This document shows, piece by piece, positions 1,581 to 62,852 of a stretch of 64,000 nucleotides of DNA. Where the stretch lies: positions 1 to 64,000 of the forward strand of contig JAPLCP010000054.1 of NCBI GenBank assembly GCA_026392155.1. Direction: 5' to 3'. Both the position numbers and the translations under genes were made by a program. The notes beneath the pieces are model-generated. The model was given only the letters and a program-made list of their open reading frames with translations. It had not been told where the DNA came from and did no database searches. The DNA is from Armatimonadota bacterium (lineage in GTDB: Bacteria; Armatimonadota; Armatimonadia; Armatimonadales; Armatimonadaceae). Positions within the stretch are counted from its first letter, which is position 1. Each line of letters begins with the position of its first letter.

Positions 1581-1637
1581 GCCCTCCTCCCCCGGCCCCT
1601 CCTCCCAATCCTGGGAGGAAGGGTGGGGGAGGGGAGA
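1581..1637. repeat. C/G-rich palindromic element, copy 1
   Basis: Directly after ppdK a polypyrimidine run folds back on a polypurine run; the inner stem TCCTCCCA/TGGGAGGA is clear. The first 26 bases are identical to positions 37950-37975, which lie inside a coding sequence, and a related hairpin sits at 29900-29929. It may serve as the ppdK terminator, although no T-run follows. The rest of the gap to 1888 holds the hairpin-rich repeat at 1783-1831 and the vapB promoter; no gene was seen there. Confidence 0.7.
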
Positions 1638-1782
1638 GATTGCGGAGAAAGGCTGGAGGCGTTTGCCTCTGGCCTTTCTGTTTTGTGGGCCTGCTGTTCA
1701 TCGGGTGGCTAAAGCGACCCGCCGGGTACCCTTTGGGTGGTCGGCAAGAACCATAAATGGGCCTCCAGACACGGAGAGCTTC

Positions 1783-3392: not shown

Positions 3393-3489
3393 ATTCGTTC
3401 TCTCTCCTCGTCCATTCTACCGTACGGGAAGCGCCCCCGAGTACCCTTTGGGTGCGGATGATTTCCATCCTGGCTTGCGGGATAATCGG

Positions 3490-5385: not shown

Positions 5386-5444
5386 CCGCGAATCGAGCCG
5401 CCCAATGGAATTAGGCGTCAAGGTAGCCTCGTCCCTCGGCTGCA

Positions 5445-5494
5445 AAGCCCGTGCCGGGCTACACCACAGCAAACCCTCAGCCCGGCACGGGCTT
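5445..5494. repeat. Perfect 16-bp inverted repeat
   Basis: AAGCCCGTGCCGGGCT (5445-5460) and its exact reverse complement (5479-5494) flank an 18-base loop. A second dyad, CCGGTT/AACCGG, follows at about 5519-5532. It lies between the divergent ABC-F gene and the small gene at 5559. No T-run follows, so it is more likely a REP-like element than a terminator. Confidence 0.7.
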
Positions 5495-5546
5495 CGCGGC
5501 ACTTGCGCCGTTGCAGACGCCGGTTTTCAACCGGTGGCCTTGGCGG

Positions 5547-29899: not shown

Positions 29900-29929
29900 C
29901 CCCCTCCTCCCAGAATTAGGAGGAGGGGG
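29900..29929 (-). terminator. Terminator of rpsO-pnp; palindromic element, copy 3
   Basis: On the minus strand CCCCCTCCTCC, an eight-base loop and GGAGGAGGGGG form a perfect 11-bp stem, followed by TATTATTTT. Its sequence is related to the palindromes at 1581-1637 and 37950-37985. Confidence 0.75.
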
Positions 29930-29944
29930 CAGGGGGAGAAGGGA

Positions 29945-32289
29945 TCAGCGGCGCGGGCGGAAGCGTGCCTTCGGAAGATCGTCGCCGTCTTCCTCAACAG
30001 GCTGTACCACCGGGTCGAGACTCGGCGATGAGGCGGTTAGCTCCTCGCGACGTGGGCCACGGTCGCGGTCGCCACCACGGAAGCCACCACGGTCTCCGCC
30101 GCGATCACCACCAGGACGGGGGCCACGGTCACGGTCTCCGCCGCGTCCGCCTCGGTCTCTATCGCCGCCGGGGCGTGGGCCACGGGGGGGACGACCTGGC
30201 TCGGGGCTGGCTGGGTCGAAGGGAGAGTCCAGATCACGAGCCGTCGCGTTCACGCGGCCCTGGCTGTCAATCTCCGTGATACGAACCCGGATCGTGTCAC
30301 CGATCTTGAGGTTCTCCTCAGGACGGCTCGGAGGCGGATCGGAGAGCTGGCTGACGTGAACCAGCGCGTCTTTCCCACCCGGCAGCGCGACAAACGCGCC
30401 AAACTGGAGGAAGCGAACCACCTCACCGTCGTAGATCTCGCCGGGGCTGAGAGTCTTGGTCATGCCCTCGATAATGGCACGCGCCGCGTCTCCGGCGATG
30501 CCATCGGTCGCGGTAATGTGCACCAGACCGCTCTGCTCGATGTCAATCTTGGCACCTGTGTCCGCGGTGATCTTCTTGATCGTCTTGCCGCCGGGGCCGA
30601 TGATCATGCCGATCTGCTCGGGGTCAATCTGCACCGTGATAATGCGCGGGGCGTACTGGCTCGCCGTCGTGCGGGACTCAGGAATCGCCTCGGTGATCTT
30701 GTCTAAGATATAGAGACGGGCCACGCGAGCCTGCTCAAACGCGTCCACGAACACGTGGCGTGGGATGCCCTGGATCTTGGTGTCGAGCTGAAGAGCGGTG
30801 ATCCCCTCGGCGGTTCCTGCGACTTTAAAGTCCATGTCGCCAGAGAAGTCCTCCATGCCCTGAATGTCGGTGAGAACGGCGAACTTGTCGCCTTCGTTGA
30901 TCAGGCCCATCGCGATTCCCGCAACCGGAGCCTTGATCGGAACGCCCGCATCCATCAGCGCCAGAGTGGAGCCACAGGTAGACGCCATAGACGTCGAGCC
31001 GTTGGACTCCATCACGTCGGAGGTCAGGAGCATGGTGTAAGGCCAGTCCTTGCCCTCGGGGAGCACGGGAACCAGAGCACGCTCCGCGAGTGCGCCGTGG
31101 CCGATCTCACGCCGACCCGCACCACGCAGAGGACGAGCCTCCCCAACGGAGTAGGGCGGGAAGTTGTAGAAGTGCATGTACTTCTTCTCGCCGTCTTCCT
31201 CAAGGGTATCCACCATCTGGGCATCGCCCGGTGAGCCAAGGGTCAGGGCGGTCAGCACCTGGGTCTGGCCACGGGTAAAGAGCCCGGTTCCGTGCACACG
31301 CGGCAGGAGCGCCACTTCACACGTGATCTCGCGGATGTCTTTGGTGCCACGGCCATCGGGGCGCTTGCCCTCGGTGACAATCAGATCGCGCAGCTGCTCT
31401 TTGACCACTTTATCGGCCAGCTCTTTGAGGTCGGCGATGTTGTCCGGGTACTCAGGCTTGAGGGCGTCTACCACGCCATTGATCAGGATCGTCAGACCGG
31501 CCTCGCGGCTGGCCTTGTCGGGATCTTGTAGCCCGGCGCGCAGCTCAGCAGAGAAGCGCTCGCGGATGACTTCAAGAATGTCTTTGTTGTACTCGTGGAG
31601 CTTGATCTCGCGCTTGGGCTTGCCTGCAATCTCGCGTAGCTTCTCAATCGCGGCGCACTGGGTCTTGATGACCTCATGGGCGTAGTCAAAGGCTTCGAGC
31701 ATCTTGGTCTCGGAGACCATATTAGCGCCGGCCTCGATCATCAAGATCGCTTTGGCGGTTCCGGCGACAACGAGATCGAGATCACTGGTCGCGATGGCGT
31801 CTTGGCTGGGGTTGATTAAAAACTCGCCTGCCTCGTTCATCCCGACGCGCACACAGCCAATCGGCCCGGCCCACGGAATGTCGGAGATATGCAGCGCTGC
31901 CGAGGCTCCGAGAACGGCGTAGACATCGGGGAGGTTCTCCATCTCGACGGAGAGAGGCACTCGTTGCGCATGTTCTTGTCAAACAGCGGGCGCAGCGGGC
32001 GGTCAATCAAACGACAAGTCAGAATCGCCTTCTCAGAAGGACGGCCCCCGCGCTTGACAAAGCCACCGGGGATTTTTCCGACGGCGTACTTTCGCTCTTC
32101 GAAGTCGCAGGTCAGGGGGAAGAAGTCAAGGCCACTCTTGGGCTCGCCACTCATGGTGGCATTACACAGGACATAGGTATCGCCTACTTTGACGACGACG
32201 GAGCCATTGGCCTGCTTGGCCAGCTTTCCCGTCTCAAGGGAGACCACGCGCCCATCGGGGAGCGTGAACTCAACGGATTGTACGGACAT
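29945..32289 (-). pseudogene. pnp: Polynucleotide phosphorylase with interrupted reading frame
   Basis: The first frame (ATG 32289) encodes the N-terminal RNase PH domain as far as [14 protein letters not shown] at about 31962, then continues out of phase. The other frame takes up at GTG 31960 with [20 protein letters not shown] and runs to the end with the second RNase PH domain (YNFPPYSVGEA; GRREIGHGALAERAL), KH domain (IGMIIGPGGKTIKKI) and S1 domain (FGAFVALPGGKDALVHVSQL). Compared with remembered E. coli PNPase about five residues are missing between NEV and PD plus one base out of phase, consistent with a 16-base deletion. The C-terminal tail is rich in Arg-Gly-Asp repeats. Either a true mutation or an assembly error. 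Confidence 0.8.
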
Positions 32290-37589: not shown

Positions 37590-38666
37590 CTACCCTGTAA
37601 GCACCGCGCGGAGAAGCTTCTCGCCGCCAAATCGCACGACATCCGTGGTTGGAAGGCCCGTCTCGGCTTCAGTCTGCTCACACGCGACTCTTGCCTCGTC
37701 GTCGGTGAGGTGGCCGCAGTTGAGCGCAATCCCGACAACCCGTGCAGGCAAGATCGGCGCACAAACCGCTTCGTAGAGGGCCGCGACTTCTTTGAGCGGT
37801 GGGAACGTTACCCAAGGCGCACGCGCAATGCTTTCCTGCCCGGCGCGGTGGCAGAGAATCAGATGCGTGGGCACGCTCCCACGGATCAGGGGCAGCCAGG
37901 CCGTCGATGCGGGATGGAGCGCGGAGCCTTGGCCCTCGACCCAGATCAGGCCCTCCTCCCCCGGCCCCTCCTCCCGATAACGGGAGGAGGGGAGTGTCTT
38001 GGCTGCTTCTAGCACTGCCCACTCGACACCGCCTGAGGCGAAGTCCACGCGTACAGCGTCTAGTGCGATTCCCGCCCCCGAGATGCAGATTCCGATCTGA
38101 CCCGTCGCGACAAACGCCGAGGTGAGATTTTGGCGTTGTGCCGCTTGGTGTAGCTCTAAACTGGCCGTCATCTTGCCAATGGCCATGTCGGTGCCGACGG
38201 TGAGAATGCGTTTCGCATTGACCTCCCACGCTCGCCCGAGGCCGTTCTCAAGACCAACTGGCTCCTGGCGCACATCCCAGATCCAGGCGTTTGGCGTGAG
38301 TGCGACGCGGAACTCAGGGGCGTCGGCCATGCGCTCGTGGAGGCCATTGACCAGCGACATCCCACCGCGCAAGCCCTCAATGACTTCCTCTCGCCACTCC
38401 GCAGGTAAGATCCCACCTGCGGGGGCAATCGCAGGAACGAGCGTGTCGGCCCCGAGCGCGCGTGCTTCTGCAATGCGGGCGACAATGGGGACACTTCGCG
38501 CAATGCCCGTGAGCGCGGCTAGGTCCTGTCCTGCTGTCTGTCGGTCAATGACGCAGGTGATCTGCGCATCGGAGTAGCGCAGTAGACCGAAGCCCATCTT
38601 GCCCCCGCTTCCTACAACCGCTTCGTGCATGAGAAGCGCGAGCTTGCGGTCGGCGGTGAGTTTCAA
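37590..38666 (-). CDS. DUF1611 protein, DgcN-like (candidate D-glutamate N-acetyltransferase)
   Basis: A 358-residue protein. The start TTG at 38666-38664 overlaps the stop of the enolase-superfamily gene upstream (TTGA), which fixes it; GAG lies upstream. The P-loop-like ILTVGTDMAIGKMTASLELH and SAFVATGQIGICISGAG are typical of DUF1611, and WVEGQGSALHPAS is the conserved core. In Pseudoalteromonas and others DUF1611 members (DgcN) acetylate D-glutamate and are encoded with DgcA, an N-acetyl-D-glutamate racemase; the same pairing occurs here. About 18 residues before WVEGQGS come from a palindromic element (37950-37985) and are not expected in the family. Confidence 0.75.
   Translation of the reverse strand: MKLTADRKLALLMHEAVVGSGGKMGFGLLRYSDAQITCVIDRQTAGQDLAALTGIARSVPIVARIAEARALGADTLVPAIAPAGGILPAEWREEVIEGLRGGMSLVNGLHERMADAPEFRVALTPNAWIWDVRQEPVGLENGLGRAWEVNAKRILTVGTDMAIGKMTASLELHQAAQRQNLTSAFVATGQIGICISGAGIALDAVRVDFASGGVEWAVLEAAKTLPSSRYREEGPGEEGLIWVEGQGSALHPASTAWLPLIRGSVPTHLILCHRAGQESIARAPWVTFPPLKEVAALYEAVCAPILPARVVGIALNCGHLTDDEARVACEQTEAETGLPTTDVVRFGGEKLLRAVLTG
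37950..37985. repeat. Palindromic element inside the DUF1611 gene, copy 2
   Basis: The first 26 bases equal 1581-1606. CCTCCTCCCG, a three-base loop and CGGGAGGAGG (37966-37988) form a strong stem. The segment is read in frame in the gene and encodes an Arg/Glu/Gly-rich insert (SRYREEGPGEEG) just before the conserved motif. Confidence 0.8.
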
Positions 38667-59600: not shown

Positions 59601-62242
59601 CACGCGGCGTGGTCACGACTTACACTTATGATTACAGCTTTGCCTCGGGATTGCTCACCAGCACCCAGGAAGGCAGCAAGCCCCCCGTTACGTTTAGCTA
59701 CCTACCTAATGGCCTGCTTCAGGGCGTGACCTACCCAGCCCCACACGGTAGCGGCGCGACCACCTGCACGATTGGCTCCACCTACACGACCAAGGGGAAC
59801 TTGGCGAGCATCAGCGGGCCGGGCAACAATGCCGCCGCCGCACAGACTGTCACGTTTGGCTACACCCAGGATGGCACCTACTCGCAGCCTGAGGCACTGG
59901 CCCGGCCTTTGACGATTACGGATGCCAATGGCAACGCCTCACACATGCGCTATGATTCACGCGGCAATGTGACCAGTGCCTGGGATGCGCTGGGCAATAA
60001 GACCGACAGCGAGTACAACGTGGCAGGGCAAGTGACAAGAACCTGGCTCCCCGCCGCCACTTCCGGTGCCGCCCGTGGCTCTGTGACCAACGATTACCGT
60101 TATCCCAGTGGGGTACAAAGCCGGACACGGGTCTGGCCAGCGGGTGGTGGGGGCGCTGCCTCTGACTCACAGTTCACGCACTACCCCAATGGTCTTCCCA
60201 GTGGTACTAACAATAATGGTATGCAGTATCCTTGGGGAACCAAAGATGCCGCCTGCCGTGTCACCGATATTCCCGACCCCAACGGCAACAACACGGACTT
60301 GGGCTACGACGACGACGGCTTCCCCAACGAAATCAGCTACCCTGGTGGCAACCTGGATGGGGATAAGACGACCTTCGGTGGCTACAACAACGCGGGCCAG
60401 CTTACGACCCGCACGGACGGCAACGGGAAAGTGGCGAACTTTACATACGCCGATCCCGAGGGTAAACTAACCGCTGTGAGCTTCCCCGCCTCGCCCGCCG
60501 ACAACGTCTCGATGACCTACGATAGCTTCGGTCGCCCGGCAAGCCGCACGGACAAGAGCGGGACGCAAACCTTCACGTACGGGAACTTGGACGAAGTGAC
60601 CAGCGTGACGACCCAGTACGTCGGGCTTCCTCCCCAAACTATCAGCTACACCTACCACCCCGACGGCAGCCGCAAAACCATGACCACGCCCGCCGGGACA
60701 TTTACTTATAATTACGACGCAGGCGGTCGGCCCACCAGCATGACCAACCCGTTTGGCGAGACCACCACCTGGACGTACCAGGCAAACGACCTGCTTGCCA
60801 CCCAGACAAGCCACAACGGACTCACGGCGGCTTACAGCTTCAATGGTCTCGGGCAACTGACCGCTTTAACCAACACCATCGGCGGCAGTGCGGTTGCCAC
60901 GTTCAATAACATGACCTACGATGCTGTCGGAAACCGCTTAACCCTCGCCGCCACCATCCCGATTGCCACAGCGCTTTCCGGTACGACGACGTATGGGTAC
61001 GATTCCCAGTTCCGCTTGACCGGCGAGAGCACGACGCGAGCGGGCGGCGCAGTCAATGTGTTCTCGTATGACAACGCAGGCAACCCGACGGTCTTCAAAG
61101 GGCAGTCAAGAAGCTACAACGCCAAGAACCAGCACAACGCCAGTGGCTTCGTCTACGACAAGAACGGCAACCCCACCACCTACAACGGCACGACAATTGT
61201 TTACGATGTCTTCGACAACCCCACCCAGTTTGGCAATGTGTTGAGCTGTGGCTATACTAGCGAAGGCTTGCGAGCCTGGAAACAGCCTACGAATGGCACC
61301 AAACGCTACTTCCTCTATGATAGTGTGATTCCTATTTGTGAACTCGATGTAAGCGGCAATGTAATAGCGACAAATAGCATGGGGGCCAAGGGGCTTGTCT
61401 CTCGTCAGGAATCTGGCACTGGCTCGGTGTTCTACGGCTTCGATGAGCGCGGAGGGACTACAGTCAGAACAAGTGCAAGTGGTGCGGCACTGAGCGTTCA
61501 TGGTCAAGATGGCTATGGCACTTTACTGGCTGGCATATATGGCTCTGCCGACCCGTATTCTGGCATGGGAGCACAGTGGGGATACTACAGCGAGCCTGAG
61601 ACAGGCTTCCAACTTTGTACATTTCGCTACTATGACCAAGCAGGCGGGAAATGGGTAAATAGAGACCCTATAGGATATATGGGAGGCATAAACTTATATG
61701 GCTATTGTGAGGGGAATCCAATAAATAAGAAGGATACATTGGGATGGTGCAGTGATAAACGTCATGATGATCCAAACTGCCCTGAGGATCTTTATGTTCT
61801 TCCATTTAATACCAAAGGGCGTATACAAGGCCCTGGGGAAGTAATTGGTGGGATTATTGGTGCTGTACTGGGTGCCCCATTAGGTGGACTAATACTTGGA
61901 GTACCATTTGGAGCACTTGGCGTGTTCATCGGTACGCCATTTGGTCCTTGGGGCCAAATTGGATTTGGATTACTTGGTATAGCCTTCGCTGAATTTATTG
62001 GTGGAGCAATTGGAAGTGGTATCGGATCTGGTATCGGATCTGCAATTGGCTCTCTAATTGAGGATTTGATTGAGTCATGGCGCCGTGGACACGGGAAAAT
62101 GTCACCATGTGACCGGAAATGGGCAATTCAGCATATGAAAGATGCCTTTGATCAAAGTGGTTGGGAAGGTCTTTTTGGTGGATTATTTGGTGGTTGGATT
62201 TTGGGGAGACTAAAACCGTTAGAGAAGTTGTTCACTAAATGA
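56672..62242 (+). CDS. YD-repeat (Rhs-type) protein with Tat signal and C39-like peptidase domain
   Basis: A 1856-residue protein from GTG 56672 behind GGAGG. Residues 12-41: twin-arginine signal (RSSRREFLQKAALVGAGLAV). About 90-165: TPR-like helices. About 195-330: papain-fold domain resembling C39 peptidases, with Cys203 in DPICGAAALAFC and His278 in ERDHFVACL. Then a Gly-rich linker and YD repeats (for example SMTYDDMGNVLTRTTPRGVV), ending at the Rhs core DPIGYMGGINLYGY...DTLGW (about 1665-1692). The final 164 residues are a separate module of Gly-x3-Gly hydrophobic repeats (GAVLGAPLGGLILGVPFGAL; GGAIGSGIGSGIGSAIGSLI) of lower G+C: a candidate pore-forming or membrane-acting effector. The role as a contact-dependent toxin is inferred from Rhs family knowledge. 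Confidence 0.88.
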   Translation: MEEMQSRGAQKRSSRREFLQKAALVGAGLAVPVFTAEEALAQTKPSQPVVPLHYGSSLWDEVGRLRQPVSEKQVTAWRDELRKRSLPKERTALLRLWLGEWELDAGRAPIKAREHFEKALKLAKPGETLHGWARYNAAVACFFEGKYAAAAKEFHTLLRDKKERGFSRQATALWARHVGACAAEHAALGDMGIPRPREVDPICGAAALAFCMRQLRMPITKKETLSKVAYTGRGSTMQDLLDACPKLGLSGHVIKADSEALKLFKGKVPMVAWVERDHFVACLHADEDGVHYSCSDCGMWPGGVNAITWKQWQAMRPGVYLAVAKPGSEEDKLLSHLTAPRNSSLAVPGVKVAMEAGSGQVIQSAIQLSSLYRSLAPHVVGFTMLMGVECGLSPMALQCLVAPWGPGCPDIGGPCGNCGEPLEGVEANAANGQVDVPAPSRLDVPNPNGPSVDFGPSYNSLRGPDTMYWNNDFGQSWTHDYKISVYDGSAVPPVPAPTGQVRQGNPTPNQVPITGAVAPANSSVTWEVYKGTTLVADSSQPQGWTLQMGFSYGGGGGYGGGYGGGGSNSTTMSVAAPVDAPTGNDYSARYHGVVYPQGIATKSGSFQVVSHGISPSTAPRYLVMPNGARVGFSASSVPSATNPTVGCAVSTGLPYKIDLCYDPNNTGGYYKITLPDGTRWTTQGISQVDTIYGYSGTAYALHYVLGAITDKVGNSITMTYARFNNGLGVSTPPVLTSIKDASTNTALLTLGRNGQGEIISASDNTGRTVHYEIQTYLTGGYVHPSVRGLTKVSQVVPTGTPAASAPMRSQYGYSQVQNGIYAYGGYETTPQLTSITVPSPTGTGTATGTIEYEDGTCYVKKLTGADGASVEFQQVNADGTPWDPYGNYQSGSYGGASLFTKVITKASNGAVMTSQTIGFDSNMNQTEIKTATGKVLSTSVYGDPTTPYRPTATIDGMGRTWSMTYDDMGNVLTRTTPRGVVTTYTYDYSFASGLLTSTQEGSKPPVTFSYLPNGLLQGVTYPAPHGSGATTCTIGSTYTTKGNLASISGPGNNAAAAQTVTFGYTQDGTYSQPEALARPLTITDANGNASHMRYDSRGNVTSAWDALGNKTDSEYNVAGQVTRTWLPAATSGAARGSVTNDYRYPSGVQSRTRVWPAGGGGAASDSQFTHYPNGLPSGTNNNGMQYPWGTKDAACRVTDIPDPNGNNTDLGYDDDGFPNEISYPGGNLDGDKTTFGGYNNAGQLTTRTDGNGKVANFTYADPEGKLTAVSFPASPADNVSMTYDSFGRPASRTDKSGTQTFTYGNLDEVTSVTTQYVGLPPQTISYTYHPDGSRKTMTTPAGTFTYNYDAGGRPTSMTNPFGETTTWTYQANDLLATQTSHNGLTAAYSFNGLGQLTALTNTIGGSAVATFNNMTYDAVGNRLTLAATIPIATALSGTTTYGYDSQFRLTGESTTRAGGAVNVFSYDNAGNPTVFKGQSRSYNAKNQHNASGFVYDKNGNPTTYNGTTIVYDVFDNPTQFGNVLSCGYTSEGLRAWKQPTNGTKRYFLYDSVIPICELDVSGNVIATNSMGAKGLVSRQESGTGSVFYGFDERGGTTVRTSASGAALSVHGQDGYGTLLAGIYGSADPYSGMGAQWGYYSEPETGFQLCTFRYYDQAGGKWVNRDPIGYMGGINLYGYCEGNPINKKDTLGWCSDKRHDDPNCPEDLYVLPFNTKGRIQGPGEVIGGIIGAVLGAPLGGLILGVPFGALGVFIGTPFGPWGQIGFGLLGIAFAEFIGGAIGSGIGSGIGSAIGSLIEDLIESWRRGHGKMSPCDRKWAIQHMKDAFDQSGWEGLFGGLFGGWILGRLKPLEKLFTK

Positions 62243-62661: not shown

Positions 62662-62674
62662 GTATCATATCCCT

Positions 62675-62852
62675 GCCTCGCCCGCCGACAACGTCTCGAT
62701 GACCTACGACGGCTTCGGTCGCGTTGCCAGCCGCACGGACAAAAGCGGGATGCAGACCTTCACGTACGGCAACCTGGACGAAGTGACCAGCGTGACGACC
62801 CAGTACGTCGGGCTTCCTGCGCAGACCATCAGCTACACCTACCATCCCGATG
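62675..62852 (+). pseudogene. Displaced fragment of a YD-repeat gene
   Basis: About 176 bases closely match 60488-60663 inside the Rhs gene (offset 2187, most differences third-position or single-base). It encodes ASPADNVSMTYDGFGRVASR and GLPAQTISYTYHP. It has no start of its own and is cut off on both sides, with the open frame ending at 62896. It is a relic of recombination or a displaced copy of the repeat region, not a gene. Confidence 0.8.

Follow-up and report, generated by a model that had tools for sequence, protein, structure and literature searches.

The palindrome that lies in frame within a DUF1611/DgcN-like gene of an Armatimonadota bacterium is best explained as belonging to a family of REP/REPIN-like palindromes that is specific to the lineage, an explanation to which we assign a probability of about 0.8, taken jointly with the account of spread and selection proposed below. 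The copy was found in a 64,000-nucleotide stretch (the window), which lies in contig C139 of a 4.77-Mb draft genome; this genome (G000) was compared with a sister species of the same genus (G013) and with an outgroup (G041). Palindromic repeats that invade proteins in frame are best known from Rickettsia; here such an invasion is seen genome-wide in an unrelated bacterial genus that is apparently free-living and has a genome of ordinary size, affecting even genes that are normally essential, such as that for arginyl-tRNA synthetase.

A dispersed palindrome family

The original prediction was built on 26 identical bases (GCCCTCCTCCCCCGGCCCCTCCTCCC) at 1581-1606, after a gene that it named ppdK, and at 37950-37975, inside the DUF1611 gene. 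This match was confirmed, and the similarity between the two copies extends to 43 nt with 88% identity. The related hairpin noted near 29900-29929 was recovered as well, at about 29901-29929, as a more diverged copy (Table 1). The stem of the DUF1611 palindrome comprises 11 bp, and all three window copies folded better than shuffled sequences as single-stranded DNA (z -3.2 to -3.5). In the sister species, another palindrome (CCCCCTAGCCCCCGTCCGACGGGGGG) stands directly past the stop codon of the ppdK-called gene.

Table 1 Coordinates and composition of the palindromes and of their host gene (window positions unless a locus is given)
Feature	Position	Strand	Sequence or remark
DUF1611/DgcN-like gene carrying the palindrome in frame	about 37590..38666	-	start inferred to be the TTG at 38666
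REP-like palindrome in the DUF1611 gene	37950..37992	+	CCCTCCTCCCCCGG-CCCCTCCTCCC-loop-GGGAGGAGGGG
5' tail of the DUF1611 palindrome	37951-37960		CCCTCCTCCC
Linker of the DUF1611 palindrome	between tail and stem		CCGG
First stem arm of the DUF1611 palindrome	37965-37975		CCCCTCCTCCC
Loop of the DUF1611 palindrome	37976-37981		GATAAC
Second stem arm of the DUF1611 palindrome	37982-37992		GGGAGGAGGGG
Second copy of this palindrome, intergenic, following the ppdK-called gene	1581..1640	+
Third, more diverged intergenic copy	29901..29945	-	hairpin CCCCCTCCTCCCAGAATTAGGAGGAGGGGG
Family (c) in-frame REPINs in G000	L350 (C54), L353 (C135)		family (a) in the G013 orthologues

A strict form of the hairpin, CCTCCTCCC-N2-16-GGGAGGAGG, occurs 76 times without mismatch in the 4.77-Mb genome, against 3 occurrences of a reversed control pattern, and a relaxed form (up to three mismatches) gave 63 and 64 genome matches against none for the control. 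Among 60 relatives, only the same-genus G013 has the strict hairpin, three times. A census of 115 fetched stretches (550 kb), scanned for hairpins with up to three mismatches, returned 131 hairpins in 117 elements, 14 of which are close pairs; these counts come from a draft assembly and cover mainly one of several palindrome families. The original prediction was to be given up if the genome held no further copies; with about 130 hairpins, it stands on this point.

The family consensus reads CCCTCCTCCCC(C)xGC-CCCTCCTCCC-AATCCT-GGGAGGAGGGG and contains no stop codon in any of the six frames. Its C-rich 5' tail is a repeat of the stem arm, and the preferred loop, AATCCT or its complement, is present in 73 of the 131 hairpins. 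Some of the 14 pairs are inverted, with units about 60-100 nt apart, which is the arrangement of a REPIN; whole pairs of this kind lie at C35 and C200:27345 and are missing from the sister's orthologues. As with REPs in the general sense, most elements (90 of 117) are not in-frame and internal to genes. A GTAG or CGTC tag was not found beside the stem, the bases adjacent to 123 copies showing only a weak preference for A, T or G.

In-frame copies inside protein genes

Copies were called as in-gene when a dicodon coding score supported both flanks in the same open frame. This held for 33 hairpins, and after four terminal or spurious cases had been removed, 29 internal hairpins remained. They are spread over 27 sites, or 23% of the elements, and 25 genes; in-frame insertion in protein genes, as known from the Rickettsia elements, is thus present here. 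The hosts that could be named with Pfam include the 2-oxoacid dehydrogenase acyltransferase (E2), RecQ, DNA polymerase I, arginyl-tRNA synthetase (ArgS) and HemD, as well as QueG, AlkZ-like, MFS, FtsX-like, TauE, alpha-amylase/CBM48 and PSCyt1/PSCyt2 proteins. Many inserts are located between Pfam domains (RecQ, PolI, E2, PSCyt1/PSCyt2 and CBM48/amylase). The element is read in several frames and in both orientations, and the peptides encoded in this way resemble PSSQSWEEG, LLPILGGG or PPPNPGRR.

Copies that clearly break a gene were not detected when the census was searched with coding-potential scores, a search that could miss a few decayed genes. Same-strand copies whose flanks differ in frame, or share a frame that a stop interrupts, were considered as broken genes and rejected, because they mark the end or the beginning of a gene: the reading frame on the upstream side either ends no later than the element, or crosses it to a stop that overlaps the start of the next gene, with a start codon downstream. 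At one-in-three odds, the chance that all 27 sites are in frame is roughly 1e-13, which points to selection on frame rather than to a special insertion mechanism. The central idea of the original prediction, a small palindrome that can enter genes without breaking them, is thus borne out by the approximately 130 copies, by the 27 in-frame sites and by the sister species, in which several sites are cleanly empty. The host proteins accommodate a small piece of parasitic DNA within their loops.

In the DUF1611 gene, the insert encodes approximately residues L225-G239 (LPSSRYREEGPGEEG). Counted between the conserved DFAxGxxE and EGQGS motifs, the loop is 14-16 residues long in all but two of the 91 readable homologues (89 of 91) and 19 residues long in one; it has 24 residues in G013 and 28 in the window, making the window loop 13-14 residues longer than those outside the genus and four longer than that of the sister. 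An extra stretch had been predicted correctly, but its size (about 18 residues) was overestimated. Likewise, about 90 homologues from other genera lack such an insert, as had been expected, but the sister species has one too, its loop being nearly as long. A homologue with an insert of the same length and no palindrome was to count against the prediction; what G013 has is an insert of near-equal length made of a different palindrome, CCCCCGCCC-loop-GGGCGGGGG, so that the objection holds by half. The empty site that was to be sought in neighbouring strains is not there, since the only same-genus genome carries its own palindrome at this place, and a single insertion into an empty site therefore cannot be claimed at DUF1611. 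The G013 insert was rejected as a copy of a large exact family, because its exact pattern occurs once in G013; it resembles a degenerate family (c) stem (see below).

The solved homologues (PDB 2OBN and 7XRJ) do not have the insert. An AlphaFold2 model of the window protein reached a mean pLDDT of 89 and a TM-score of 0.91-0.95 against 2OBN, with the REP-encoded residues 229-235 below 50 in a loop between helix 207-222 and strand 239-243. This stretch is therefore predicted to be a disordered surface loop. Against the NCBI DgcN model, the protein scored 201 bits, below the cut-off of 480, indicating a DgcN relative rather than a called member.

In the linker between the PSCyt1 and PSCyt2 domains (L287, L159, L066 and L072), palindrome insertions were found repeatedly in several paralogues and in both species, at approximately one position downstream of a conserved HWAF motif.

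Empty, occupied and differently occupied sites in the sister species

Orthologues in G013 were found by means of a concatenated query of the gene flanks. All 29 flank comparisons between G000 and G013 were collinear, and the spacing differed by a multiple of three in each. Clean or near-clean empty sites were seen in G013 at C35 (the E2 linker), C179 (HemD), C200:6017, C200:27345, C122 and C152. This presence and absence at orthologous sites, which was observed between two species rather than between strains, suggests that the family is mobile. For intergenic sites, the sampled DNA of the sister species yielded only four pairs that could be compared.

At about ten shared sites besides DUF1611, G013 carries a different palindrome. 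Three families were distinguished: family (a), CATCCCTCCCCCxGCCCCTCCCTTC, whose exact half-site occurs 51 times in G013 and once in G000; family (b), around CCCTCTTCCC; and family (c), around CCCCCTAGCCCCCG, which is present in both genomes. An inverted repeat was significant in G013 at 7 of the 27 sites (control P <=0.02; about 0.5 expected), with several more that are weaker, and this test is conservative because the control pool itself contains such sites. In the reverse direction, 25 elements of family (a) were examined in G013, and 7 of them lie in frame in genes. G000 orthologues outside the sites already known from G000 were found for two of these seven, and both carry an in-frame family (c) REPIN at the same place (Table 1). 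At 16 comparable sites in the outgroup G041, the loops vary in length and no REP was found.

How, then, did different palindromes come to occupy the same sites? One reading, whose chances we put slightly below even, is that few loops are permissive and that these were invaded independently in each species. The same sites are variable linkers in the outgroup too, several G000 sites are empty or nearly so in G013, and the paralogous PSCyt1/PSCyt2 proteins were struck repeatedly at one linker, all of which agrees with independent invasion. However, this would demand much coincidence, given thousands of genes each with many loops: the sites with a significant G013 inverted repeat far exceed the expected number, and both testable cases from G013 to G000 hold a REPIN of a different family.

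The other reading, which we likewise consider nearly an even bet, is that the ancestor already had palindromes at these sites and that newer families replaced them in each species, by insertion into the old element or by conversion. Such turnover would fit the reciprocal shared sites with different families, the presence of family (c) in both genomes together with the likeness of the G013 DUF1611 site to a degenerate family (c) stem, and a precedent in two Xanthomonas species, where different REPs occupy approximately the same recB site (PMC3733652). On the other hand, half-replaced intermediates were not demonstrated, and the borders differ by some codons in a comparison of two species. If inherited occupancy with turnover applies, the loops may be long-lived docking sites that stayed occupied through speciation and whose resident was overwritten by the active family of each lineage, the loop sequence being set by the current selfish repeat; we propose this only tentatively, with the odds somewhat against it.

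It is improbable that the in-frame copies were selected for a function, either as flexible linkers or as mRNA hairpins that pause translation between domains. Many copies do sit at domain boundaries and the hairpins are still foldable, but orthologues with no palindrome or with another one look equally intact, different frames and orientations and hence different peptides are used, and the majority of the copies are intergenic. Finally, local GC-rich slippage or low-complexity expansion in place of a mobile repeat, although suggested by the CCTCC/GGAGG-like words of the element and by extra short copies at some sites, is refuted by the consensus common to unrelated loci, where the full-length tail-linker-stem-loop-stem recurs with its preferred loop while the reversed control pattern is absent.

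Proposed spread and relation to known repeats

For the REP/REPIN-like family that we favour, spread would take place by transposition of the hairpin-forming single strand, and an HUH-type (Y1) transposase is probably responsible. Insertion would be roughly blind to genes, and selection would remove any copy that alters the reading frame or falls in the protein core, so that those in loops and domain linkers persist. A protein site once occupied would tend to stay occupied, with the resident family changing between species.

Intact copies of the repeat were looked for beside the PF01797 genes of G000 (three) and G013 (seven), and none of these genes is flanked by one. The two intact PF01797 proteins of G000 were rejected as RAYTs (32-35 bits against the RAYT-model cut-off of 80) and score as IS200/IS605 transposases. 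A RAYT-mobilised REP, or REPtron, was thus found in neither genome.

Classical REPs and REPINs are extragenic. The present family shares with REPINs (Bertels and Rainey 2011, PMC3116915) the two inverted units about 60-100 nt apart and the species-specific families, but, unlike in REPIN/RAYT systems, the element was not found on the flanks of any RAYT-type gene. Further parallels are the GTAG and CGTC REPs described by Di Nocera et al. 2013 (PMC3733652), of which the ORF-internal cases come mostly from Opitutus terrae and Rickettsia conorii; these REPs have DNA repair genes and tRNA synthetases among their intragenic targets, and add about 20-30 residues as dimers. Like these, the present elements are short dispersed hairpins, often dimers, mostly intergenic, with some wholly in ORFs, and their targets also include DNA repair genes and tRNA synthetases. 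Unlike them, they have no tag, their C-rich tail repeats the stem arm, the host group is different, and many sites common to two species are held by different families.

The Rickettsia palindromic elements, nearly half of whose copies are in ORFs, are about 150 bp long and encode a conserved peptide (PMC10969869). The likeness to them that had been proposed holds in a functional sense, since palindromes lie in frame within protein genes in both, but not by descent, as the sequence differs and several element frames are used. Rather than one frame and a conserved peptide over about 100-150 bp, we found a unit that measures about 45 nt, or about 90-115 nt as a pair, and is read in various frames and from both strands.

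Intragenic REPs are therefore already known (Rickettsia, Opitutus); new here are the host group, the untagged family, the scale, a pattern that extends across the genus, and sites that different families have used in turn or in parallel. A literature search under the name Armatimonadetes returned no report of such repeats. With empty, occupied and differently occupied sites in two related species, a long-standing question becomes testable, namely by what route selfish DNA gives rise to new segments of proteins, and whether these are kept or merely tolerated.

The window also contains other repeats. A second palindromic family, AGCGGGCTTTAGCCTGCTTGCCG...GGGCCGCTTTAGCCGCCCG, is present near the ppdK copy at 1783-1831 and 2656-2704 (86% identity), and its core CGGGCGGCTAAAGCGGCC was seen again in sampled DNA of the sister species. 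Words like CCGGGTACCCTTTGGGTG, at 1719-1739 and 3434-3454, resemble the ACCCAGAGGGTACC core in the spacer of the family (a) REPINs of G013. At 5439-5500 lies an inverted repeat of 22 nt (GCTGCAAAGCCCGTGCCGGGCT), whose arms are 91% complementary and enclose a loop of 18 nt, and a similar word, AGCCCGGCACGGGCTTT, was found beside other palindrome copies elsewhere in the genome. Furthermore, a 181-nt direct repeat with 91% identity and a spacing of 2187 nt occupies 60483-60663 and 62670-62850.
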